IMG/VR virus record: IMGVR_UViG_3300033144_001553
Location: 1 to 28,064 of that record
Length of the DNA stretch: 28,064 bases
Source: a virus
Reading direction: 5' to 3' (one strand)
Shown: one piece after another, positions 23,750 to 27,598 of the stretch
How positions within the stretch are numbered: the first letter of the stretch is position 1
How the letters are laid out: each line of letters begins with the position of its first letter
Translations under genes and position numbers: made by a program
Notes under the pieces: model-generated
The model's database searches: none
What the model saw: only the letters and a program-made list of their open reading frames with translations
What the model was told of the DNA's origin: nothing

Positions 23750-23765
23750 GTGTCTTCAAAGACAC
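23750..23765 (+). repeat. 16-nt hairpin repeat, copy 4
   Basis: Perfect GTGTCTTCAAAGACAC, starting 4 bases after the stop of the 23102-23746 gene and 18 bases before the preferred amidoligase ATG. Its first three bases are a GTG that an ORF caller may take as the start of the next gene. Confidence 0.9.
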
Positions 23766-23782
23766 AAAAAACCACAGATAAA

Positions 23783-24730
23783 ATGATAAACGAAATCACA
23801 TACACAAATTCAAACGAATCTCAGAGAGGAAGAATGTCTCGTTACCATTCTTCTCCTCAGCCAAGAGAGATGCACAAAGGTGCTAAGAATACTGATATCG
23901 CAAATCTAAAGACTACCAAAAAACGTAATCTTTTAATAGATGAGAATGGAGACCACAAATCGAAGTTCACTATCGGTATTGAAGTTGAAAAGAACAGATT
24001 AAGTTCTAGAGCAGTGACTGAATATCCTTTGTTCAAAGGATTTGAAAGAGATAGTTCTTGCGGTTATGAAGCTATAACTAATATCTTACCATTGCTACCT
24101 AGCGGTAAATGGAGAAACAAAGTTTTCAATATGATGTTTGAAGCTAGAAAAATTATTGAAGACCAATACTCTCCAAGTGACTACAGATGTGGTGGTCACG
24201 TTACATTAGGTGTTGAGGGAATGAATGGTCAACAGATTATGAAAGCAATCAGAAAAAATTGCGGAATCTTACATTCTTTATTCTTTAAAAGACTTAAGAA
24301 TGGATATTGTAAAAACAATCTAACAATGCTACCATACGATGAGGAAATGATGAATGGTGGCGGTAGATACCAATTCTGTCTAGATAAAGGTAATCTAATC
24401 GAGTTTAGAGTTGTATCTCGTTTCCAATCGGTAAAGCAGATGATGAGAAGATACGAGTTGTTCTATGAGTTACTTGACTTTTCAATTAACAATCCAAATG
24501 GAAACCACAATACATTCCTTAAGAAAATTACTCCAATCGTTAAGTCTATGTACAATGGCGATATGGACAAGGTAAACGAAAAACTTGAGTTGGCTAAGAC
24601 ATTTAGAAAAATGATATTGACCAACAAAGTAAGTAGACCAATCATTGACTATGTTGACCCAATGCGAAGACTTGATGCACAGAAGTGGTACGACAGAGAG
24701 TTACTCAGAAATGGGTACAGAGCAATCTAA
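23783..24730 (+). CDS. Putative amidoligase (carboxylate-amine ligase, glutamine-synthetase-like fold)
   Basis: 315 residues from the ATG at 23783; the in-frame GTG at 23750 lies in the 16-nt repeat and is less likely. Amidoligases (PF12224 type, described by Iyer and colleagues) use ATP to join a carboxylate to an amine. Seen: FTIGIEVE (62-69, metal-binding Glu), ERDSSCGYEA (88-97), CGGHVTLG (136-143), GGGRYQF (192-198) and IEFRVVSRFQ (206-215), in family order. Substrate unknown. The same operon arm carries a glutamine amidotransferase fused to gamma-glutamylcyclotransferase, families often found with amidoligases. The gene ends 11 bases before the hairpin and hammerhead. Confidence 0.75.
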   Translation: MINEITYTNSNESQRGRMSRYHSSPQPREMHKGAKNTDIANLKTTKKRNLLIDENGDHKSKFTIGIEVEKNRLSSRAVTEYPLFKGFERDSSCGYEAITNILPLLPSGKWRNKVFNMMFEARKIIEDQYSPSDYRCGGHVTLGVEGMNGQQIMKAIRKNCGILHSLFFKRLKNGYCKNNLTMLPYDEEMMNGGGRYQFCLDKGNLIEFRVVSRFQSVKQMMRRYELFYELLDFSINNPNGNHNTFLKKITPIVKSMYNGDMDKVNEKLELAKTFRKMILTNKVSRPIIDYVDPMRRLDAQKWYDRELLRNGYRAI

Positions 24731-24736
24731 TCTAAA

Positions 24737-24766
24737 AGGGGTAGTGTCTTCAAAGACACTACTCCT
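24737..24766 (+). other. Extended 13-bp hairpin around the 16-nt repeat
   Basis: AGGGGTAGTGTCT (24737-24749) pairs with AGACACTACTCCT (24754-24766) around loop TCAA, one G-T wobble. No T run follows, so it is not a plain terminator. The last paired base is the first base of hammerhead stem III, so this hairpin would sit near the 3' end of the upstream RNA after self-cleavage. Confidence 0.8.
24744..24759 (+). repeat. 16-nt hairpin repeat, copy 5
   Basis: Perfect GTGTCTTCAAAGACAC in the intergenic region after the amidoligase gene, extended by flanking GTA/TAC and further pairs. Confidence 0.9.
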
Positions 24767-24816
24767 CTGTCTGAGGATGAGTGTCCTCACTGATGAGTTC
24801 AAAAGAACGAAACAGA
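24766..24816 (+). ncRNA. Type III hammerhead ribozyme
   Basis: Self-cleaving RNA between the amidoligase gene and the 24845 gene. Stem III TCTGT/ACAGA (24766-24770 with 24812-24816, open end); cleavage triplet GTC with scissile C at 24771; stem I TGAGGA/TCCTCA (24772-24777 with 24784-24789), loop TGAGTG; core CTGATGA (24790-24796); stem II GTTC/GAAC, loop AAAA (24797-24808); core GAAA (24809-24812). Layout is the same as the tobacco ringspot satellite ribozyme. All invariant core positions are present; loops I and II could make the tertiary contact needed for fast cleavage. Predicted cut is after 24771, giving a 2',3'-cyclic phosphate upstream. I found no second copy, so a circular RNA is unlikely. 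Confidence 0.93.
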
Positions 24817-24844
24817 AACTTTAATTAATTTAAATACACACAAA

Positions 24845-25081
24845 ATGAAAAATCAAATCAGAAATTATGCAGAAACAATTGTTTATGTATCAGTAACATT
24901 AGGAGTCTTCTCAATGGTAGGCAGACTATTAGTCCACATTATTTTTAACGATGCTAGAATGCTATTACAGAGCGTTAGCGGAGTAGTATCAATGCTAGTT
25001 GTATGTGCATTCTTATTGTTCTGTATGTATGCAACAAGTCTACTTATTATAGCTGACATAAAAGAGAGACACAATGCATAG
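24845..25081 (+). CDS. Small two-span membrane protein
   Basis: 78 residues: spans at about 11-33 (TIVYVSVTLGVFSMVGRLLV) and 44-69 (VSGVVSMLVVCAFLLFCMYA), short basic C-terminus DIKERHNA. First gene after the ribozyme, so its mRNA would begin with a 5'-OH at 24772 if cleaved. Helical-hairpin membrane proteins in early phage regions can be superinfection-exclusion or membrane modifiers, but nothing here identifies it. Confidence 0.65.
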   Translation: MKNQIRNYAETIVYVSVTLGVFSMVGRLLVHIIFNDARMLLQSVSGVVSMLVVCAFLLFCMYATSLLIIADIKERHNA

Positions 25082-26453: not shown

Positions 26454-26461
26454 TATATTTG
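26454..26461 (+). promoter_or_regulatory. -7 box (TATATTTG) of the GAT-II/GGCT gene
   Basis: TATATTTG within TATATTTGTCCAATC, about 64 bases before the ATG at 26525. Both this and the 23010 box read TATATTTGTC. TTG at 26431-26433 may be the -33 element. Confidence 0.7.
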
Positions 26462-26487
26462 TCCAATCAATTATTAATCAGAGGTCT

Positions 26488-26503
26488 GTGTCTTCAAAGA
26501 CAC
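26488..26503 (+). repeat. 16-nt hairpin repeat, copy 7 (5' leader)
   Basis: Perfect GTGTCTTCAAAGACAC in the untranslated leader of the GAT-II/GGCT gene, 22-37 bases before its ATG. Nearby GAGG (26481) and CCTC (26505) could extend the hairpin across mismatches. Confidence 0.9.
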
Positions 26504-26524
26504 TCCTCACAAATCAAATTAAAT

Positions 26525-27598
26525 ATGTGCGTAATTATTATTAAGCAGAAAAACAATGTGATGACTGAAGAGATAGCCAAGACATCATCACGAATCAATC
26601 CTCACGGATTGGGAATCATTTGGCTAGATACTTTTGAAGTCGAGTATCACAAATCAAAAGACTATCGTAAGCTACTAACCAAGCGACCATTCATTGCACA
26701 CTTTAGATATGCAACAAAAGGTAAAATCAACAAAGCCAACACGCATCCATTCATATGTGGTAACAACAAAGATGAATACCTAATGCACAATGGTACTATT
26801 AAAGGTATGGGTACAGATGAATGTTGTGATAGTAAAGAGTTAGCTTGTCACTTAGGTAGCATTAATCGTAGAGATTGGAAAAAAGAATTGGAGCAGTATG
26901 ACTCACGATTTGTTTCAATCAATGTGCGTACTCGTTCATTTCAAATCTACAACAGAAATCTATATACTTATCGAGATGGCATTTGGTATTCCAAAGCCAA
27001 TGTATTACAAGACAATCTTATCGCAGTGTATGGTACACTAAAGAAAGGTTTCGGTAACTACTATTCATACCTAACTAATGCAAAGCATTTAGGTAGAGGT
27101 AAGACTCAAGACAAGTATCCTTTGTTGGTTGAGGGGTTACCTTATATGGTAGACAAAAAAGGTGTGGGTCACAATGTAGTGGTTGATGTATTTAAAGTTA
27201 GCGATATGCAACTAAAGAACATTGACCAACTTGAAGGACATCCACGTTGGTACAAACGAAAGCTAATACCAATCAAGTTAAAGAATCGTACACTTAATTG
27301 TTGGTTGTACTTTAATCCAAAGGATGTAACAAACAAAGAGTATCACGAATCTTTTGAAAGAACTATTCAGCCAAGAAAATTATTTACGTTTGAAGATGTT
27401 CAGCCAAGTTATGATACCACTGAGTATCACGAGGCAATTGATATAGGTTGGGATGATAATGACTTTCCTACAGACCAAACACCTACCTGCGTAGATTGTT
27501 TCAATGACTTGGAACACGATGCATTCCACAACTATTACTGCTCATCTTGTGGTGGTTGGTTTAAAGAAGATGAGGTTTTAAAATTTAATCAAGAATAA
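26525..27598 (+). CDS. Class II glutamine amidotransferase - gamma-glutamylcyclotransferase - zinc ribbon fusion
   Basis: 357 residues from the ATG at 26525. This start puts Cys at residue 2, the N-terminal nucleophile of class II amidotransferases; upstream in-frame codons (from a TTG at 26459) lie in the leader. Domain 1 (1-150): C2, R61 (RYATKG), N72-H74 (NTHPF), H88-N89-G90 (LMHNGT), D102; it hydrolyses glutamine to give ammonia. Domain 2 (165-285): YGTLKKGFGN (169-178) and catalytic E237 in QLEGHPRWY, the AIG2/GGCT fold that cleaves gamma-glutamyl amides to 5-oxoproline. C-terminus (320-345): CxxC...CxxC zinc ribbon. Such fusions accompany amidoligases; the amidoligase at 23783 is a likely partner. 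Own promoter and 16-nt hairpin in the leader. Confidence 0.88.
   Translation: MCVIIIKQKNNVMTEEIAKTSSRINPHGLGIIWLDTFEVEYHKSKDYRKLLTKRPFIAHFRYATKGKINKANTHPFICGNNKDEYLMHNGTIKGMGTDECCDSKELACHLGSINRRDWKKELEQYDSRFVSINVRTRSFQIYNRNLYTYRDGIWYSKANVLQDNLIAVYGTLKKGFGNYYSYLTNAKHLGRGKTQDKYPLLVEGLPYMVDKKGVGHNVVVDVFKVSDMQLKNIDQLEGHPRWYKRKLIPIKLKNRTLNCWLYFNPKDVTNKEYHESFERTIQPRKLFTFEDVQPSYDTTEYHEAIDIGWDDNDFPTDQTPTCVDCFNDLEHDAFHNYYCSSCGGWFKEDEVLKFNQE

Follow-up and report, generated by a model that had tools for sequence, protein, structure and literature searches.

A type III hammerhead ribozyme directly behind a hairpin at a phage gene junction, where some related phages carry tRNA-like elements in its place

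The DNA analysed here, called the window throughout, is an IMG/VR virus record of 28064 bases. Judged from sequence comparison, the phage is a relative of phages of Flavobacteriia: the terminase shares 73% identity with that of MW202828.1, 45% with those of the elemo phages and 33-38% with those of Cellulophaga and Tenacibaculum phages. The junction of interest and the associated features of the window are the following:

6807, 18704 (-), 23750, 24744, 25659, 26488 (+): copies of the 16-mer GTGTCTTCAAAGACAC (pattern search)
23750-23765 (+): GTGTCTTCAAAGACAC hairpin core with no ribozyme, at the junction before the amidoligase-like gene (pattern search; junction sequence)
23783-24730 (+): upstream gene, 315 aa, amidoligase-like fold (conserved ATG in relatives; alignment; predicted structure and its matches)
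24738-24765 (+): 12-bp hairpin with loop UCAA, abutting stem III of the hammerhead (minimum-energy fold; structure conserved before other hammerheads)
24766-24816 (+): type III hammerhead ribozyme (direct reading; RF00008 match; covariation in relatives)
24845-25081 (+): downstream gene, small hydrophobic protein of 78 aa (ORF list; similar ORF after the hammerhead in close relatives)
26459-27598 (+): ORF with two domains, a class-II glutamine amidotransferase domain and a gamma-glutamyl cyclotransferase domain (GGACT; PF06094, E 7.7e-21)
26488-26503 (+): GTGTCTTCAAAGACAC hairpin core before the gamma-glutamyl-cyclotransferase gene (pattern search)

For the upstream ORF, the most likely start is the ATG at 23783, as opposed to the GTG at 23750, which sits inside a hairpin. 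Its product had been called a putative amidoligase in a first-pass annotation made from the sequence alone, a name that finds support at the level of the fold only: the predicted structure (pLDDT 76, pTM 0.80) resembles those of viral proteins annotated as amidoligase (E 4e-6 at best) and, to a small degree, the glutamine-synthetase/YbdK fold in the PDB (best E 0.01), whereas the sequence gave no match in Pfam or PHROG, nor in a sequence search of solved structures. The downstream gene opens with the ATG at 24845, 28 nt past the ribozyme. Further along, the true start of the ORF at 26459-27598 may be the ATG after its hairpin. In relatives this gamma-glutamyl-cyclotransferase gene marks a further frequent hammerhead junction, with a hammerhead often directly 3' of it, and PF06094 was present in 8 of 10 upstream genes sampled at hammerheads (a sample picked by gene length); no ribozyme follows the gene in the window. 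Bacteroidota-type promoter boxes are no more frequent than expected by chance and were not used as operon evidence.

Read directly from the plus strand, the hammerhead has all invariant core bases and its helices follow the type III order. Stem III (UCUGU/ACAGA, 24766-24770 with 24812-24816) comprises 5 bp including A15.1-U16.1 and leads to C17 at 24771, 3' of which the cut is predicted, in agreement with the site proposed in the first-pass annotation. Stem I (UGAGGA/UCCUCA, 24772-24777 with 24784-24789) comprises 6 bp, plus U-G, and carries the loop UGAGUG; it is followed by the CUGAUGA core box (24790-24796), by the 4 bp of stem II (GUUC/GAAC, 24797-24800 with 24805-24808) with the loop AAAA, and by the GAAA core box (24809-24812). 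A covariance search with the Rfam hammerhead III model, which had been suggested as a check, gave a clear match from 24764 to 24818 (+; 47.5 bits, E 1.4e-9 in a permissive search of 351 nt with RF00008) that nevertheless falls one bit below the curated gathering threshold of 48.5 bits, at which the element is not reported. This is an effect of the short loop II, which has 4 nt where the model expects eight, and no structural feature is absent; a standard Rfam search therefore misses this hammerhead. Since the loose core pattern (CTGATGA...GAAA) alone occurs in the window no more often than chance could explain (2 times against 0.65 expected), the proof rests on the stems and on comparative data, and these confirm a complete type III hammerhead at 24766-24816, for which self-cleavage is predicted.

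The comparative data come from a search of viral contigs for the upstream gene family, which yielded 28 loci; in 23 of them a hammerhead stands directly after the gene. Across the 18 distinct relatives 98.9% of the pair cells are paired, and 65 double changes compare with 18.6 in shuffles, while sliding the pairing by one column in these copies lowers the paired fraction to about 40%. The matches of a covariance model built from the 18 copies (R1) place hammerheads in 26 of 29 records. For 109 distinct relatives, 97.4% of the cells are paired, with 436 double changes against 109 in shuffled sequences and a covariation score of 0.71 against 0.22, all in an alignment that was fitted to the covariance model and whose counts lean towards it. 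While the stems vary, loop I (UGWGUR) and an A-rich loop II are retained; 78 of 105 sequences have UGUGUG, UGAGUG, UGUGUA or UGAGUA as loop I despite the varying stem I. Such constancy bears on a possible contact of loops I and II, of the kind that allows hammerheads to cut fast at low Mg2+.

Phage hammerheads had been described in the first-pass annotation as known from sparse examples, a view that must be given up: a single strict hammerhead pattern matches 73 stretches in viral contigs, and the covariance model yields 156 matches at E <= 1 in 90 loci. One hammerhead lies in the window and one to four in related records by the covariance-model search; many of these phages carry 2-4, the maximum in the second record set being four per genome. 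In most cases the element is intergenic on the sense strand, about 20-40 nt past a stop codon and 20-30 nt before an ATG, which bears out the placement first read from the window. HNH endonuclease genes adjoin the hammerheads of L122 and L142, and likewise that of L134.

A second feature of the junction is the hairpin that abuts stem III. The 45 nt upstream of 120 hammerheads fold with a mean of -14.2 kcal/mol (mean z -2.9), as opposed to -2.6 kcal/mol (z 0) for the 45 nt downstream; in 88% of the 120 the upstream structure is more stable than -6 kcal/mol. Of the 106 hammerheads with so strong a structure, 88 leave 0-2 nt between it and stem III. From one phage group to another the sequences of the structure are unrelated (GTGTCTTCAAAGACAC cores, GGGGGTCGCAAGACCCCC and GGGAGCTTCGGCTCCC among others), so that the structure is conserved and the sequence is not. 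The window holds six copies of the 16-mer GTGTCTTCAAAGACAC where 0 are expected; they always follow the local gene orientation and occur between as well as within genes. In L012, L080, L108, L119 and L125, ATCCTRAGCAWGAT...AAACTGCTY, which could fold as a pseudoknot, precedes the hammerhead in place of a strong hairpin.

Comparison of the orthologous junction reveals that a structured element follows the upstream gene in all 28 loci, although it is not always a hammerhead: besides the 23 hammerheads there are three tRNA-like elements, here called mini-tRNAs (L021, L026, L028), and two copies of a third motif (L014, L020). In L027 and L029 a mini-tRNA stands before the upstream-gene homologue and a hammerhead after it. 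The mini-tRNAs and the copies of the third motif, at this junction and elsewhere, were located as follows:

L021:2933, L021:3916, L026:4006, L027:2915, L028:2920 and 3930, L029:2898 (+), L068:3292 (-), L226, L228, L229: mini-tRNAs, intergenic
L014:3946-4012, L020:3983-4040, L082:1385-1440 (+), L172:2680-2745 (-): third motif

The mini-tRNAs consist of an acceptor-like stem of 6-7 bp, joined by a short linker to a T arm whose loop reads TTCGANT, and most lack the D and anticodon arms. They are intergenic, mostly straight after a GTGTCTTCAAAGACAC-type hairpin, and were not reported by ARAGORN or Rfam. A fixed-rule scan for them matched real sequences, including ordinary tRNAs, whereas 557 kb of Markov-shuffled sequence yielded no hit. 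No two of the twelve mini-tRNAs compared share an acceptor stem; the stem strands pair at 97% of positions with their own partner and at 41% with swapped partners, the stem boundaries having been drawn by eye. A helix of acceptor stem and T arm is a minimal substrate of RNase P, and by analogy the mini-tRNAs would be cut by RNase P in these phages. The third motif combines a variable 9-bp stem, an AGAAAC hexaloop and, behind these, AUUUGGUGGU, which pairs with an upstream ACCA. It had no Rfam match at E <= 0.05 (L014, L020) or at E <= 0.5 (L082, L172), and a relaxed scan for it returned 44 stretches with one further convincing copy only (L172).

The swap of ribozyme and tRNA-like element at one orthologous junction is comparative evidence that RNA cutting is the function selected there. 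The earlier proposal that the hammerhead cuts a polycistronic mRNA thus gains comparative ground from the exchange of processing-type elements, with cleavage itself predicted from sequence. We tentatively extend this to a standard module at mRNA ends, shared by these phages and made up of a hairpin and a cutter, in which the hammerhead, a minimal tRNA mimic that host RNase P/Z would cleave and the AGAAAC/AUUUGGUGGU motif, maybe a further self-cleaving or processing RNA, would be interchangeable at one junction; so broad a scheme is conceivable, if somewhat less probable than not.

For the window itself, our main reading, to which we assign a probability of roughly 0.7, is that the self-cleaving type III hammerhead forms one half of such a hairpin-plus-cutter module. 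Sitting past the stop codon of a gene within a presumed co-transcribed block, the hammerhead would cut the transcript 3' of C24771. The upstream mRNA would then end in the stable hairpin, followed by a tail of 6 nt that bears a 2',3'-cyclic phosphate, an end that should slow 3' exonucleases, and the downstream mRNA would open with 5'-OH-UGAGGA held in a stem-loop, which should spare it any decay dependent on a 5' phosphate. As a result, decay and dosage would be set separately for the amidoligase-like message and for the genes behind it. The strong hairpin found right before stem III in 88% of the 120 cases, with none downstream, counts for this module. The first-pass annotation had seen the ribozyme as separating amidoligase expression from the downstream genes; the cut between cistrons fits, while the abutting hairpin suggests that the upstream mRNA is given a protected end and not that the messages are merely uncoupled. 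The window hairpin may, however, serve folding rather than protection.

That last point belongs to an alternative in which the ribozyme does cut and the selected job lies on the 5' side: the 5'-OH, or the clipping of a leader, would protect the downstream mRNA, and the hairpin would mainly stack on and stabilise the short stem III. The 0-2 nt spacing in 88 of 106 cases fits coaxial stacking, the hammerhead of the cultured elemo phages lies in the leader of an operon's first gene, and in L142, L122, L113, L094 and L091 the hammerhead stands immediately 3' of a TAAATA box resembling a T4-type late promoter. Yet in nearly all cases of this phage group a stop codon and a hairpin precede the hammerhead, the mini-tRNA replacements would not be expected to leave a 5'-OH, and stem III forms without need of a strong hairpin, which together make a purely 5'-sided role unlikely.

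Variants among the relatives raise the question of whether, in this lineage, a once-useful hammerhead has begun to decay or has little activity left and no longer serves a role. Loss of a core base in a close relative that keeps both neighbouring genes, a finding that the first-pass annotation had named as refuting its reading, was encountered once, as A9 to U in L009, and L011, L012, L015, L018 and L019 have U-U at 10.1-11.1, so that activity may differ among relatives or have been lost. N17 and 10.1-11.1 vary in two phases, which points the same way. We nonetheless regard decay as improbable, as compensated covariation of the stems over 109 distinct sequences and the intact core of the window hammerhead are not products of decay. 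As to the two-phase variation itself, C17 goes together with G10.1-C11.1, and A or U at position 17 with a mismatch, mostly U-U (17/3 versus 6/30 outside the search pattern, kinship uncorrected); because the first data set was biased by the search pattern, the association was recomputed for these counts without the sequences found by that pattern.

More improbable still is that the hairpin acts as a transcription terminator and the hammerhead is its by-product. A GC-rich hairpin of 12 bp just past a stop codon would suit a terminator, but the hairpin is followed by UCUGUCUGAGG, which has no U run, and it is absent from the terminator scan; moreover, a good promoter is lacking between the hairpin and the next gene, and the core and stems of the hammerhead are conserved. 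An intrinsic terminator was thus ruled out for want of a U run. Membership in a small mobile or circular RNA of the retrozyme or satellite kind, elements in which this sort of hammerhead is common (PMC7761336), can be dismissed, as the window has a single copy at a fixed place between orthologous genes and with no flanking repeat unit.

Among known systems, the type III hammerhead of the tobacco ringspot satellite (RF00008) shares with the window element the core, the stem order, the stem lengths, the 6-nt loop I and the 4-nt loop II. The window element differs in lying between protein genes of a DNA phage, in the strong 5' hairpin abutting it and in its loop sequences. In tRNA punctuation, a tRNA marks the site between cistrons at which host enzymes such as RNase P cut operon mRNAs. 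The mini-tRNA replacements would likewise mark an intercistronic cut for host enzymes, but here the tRNA is reduced to acceptor and T arm and stands at the ribozyme site of sister phages. In phages and prophages, hammerheads flanking genes, sometimes several per genome, were described by Perreault et al. 2011, who proposed that long phage RNAs are cut into shorter mRNAs; gene-flanking phage hammerheads of other systems cut in vitro and some of them in E. coli (PMC3088659). The window and its relatives resemble these in their sense-strand, intergenic copies and in having several per genome, and differ in host, being Flavobacteriia-type phages as opposed to phages of Proteobacteria and others; the available part of the same report mentions neither an upstream hairpin partner nor a tRNA-like exchange (PMC3088659). 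Theta ribozymes of gut phages are likewise self-cleaving RNAs for RNA processing in Caudoviricetes, although they have an HDV-like fold and are tied to tRNA 3' ends and not to mRNA junctions (PMC10879173). A search of open-access papers turned up neither the hairpin-plus-cutter layout nor an exchange of hammerheads and tRNA-like elements, and within that literature both look new. The purpose of phage hammerheads was left open in the 2011 report, and the swap at one junction bears on it. If our main reading is correct, the hairpin-plus-cutter layout represents a compact natural design by which a polycistronic mRNA is turned into protected pieces.

Hammerheads also occur in cultured phages. A DNA similarity search with the window hammerhead against annotated phages gave no match, and the covariance model picked up the cultured-phage elements. 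All 68 of 68 Flavobacterium elemo phage records share a hammerhead stretch, which scores 38 bits in NC_055853.1 (E 3.8e-9 for that genome) and forms part of the leader that precedes the first gene in an operon running leftward. Cellulophaga phage phi19:3 probably carries a hammerhead of another type:

L203:468-530 (-): type I hammerhead of Cellulophaga phage phi19:3, fully paired, stem I including the gp051 stop codon

This assignment is less certain, since the type III model sees part of the element only (26 bits), Rfam returns a weak type III match and the folding energy is unexceptional compared with shuffles. With hammerheads in cultured elemo phages, and probably in phi19:3, the question of what these ribozymes do becomes testable in infected cells. 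The same hammerhead pattern also matched 19 stretches from contigs of bacterial genome assemblies (L206-L224), many of them labelled Patescibacteria.
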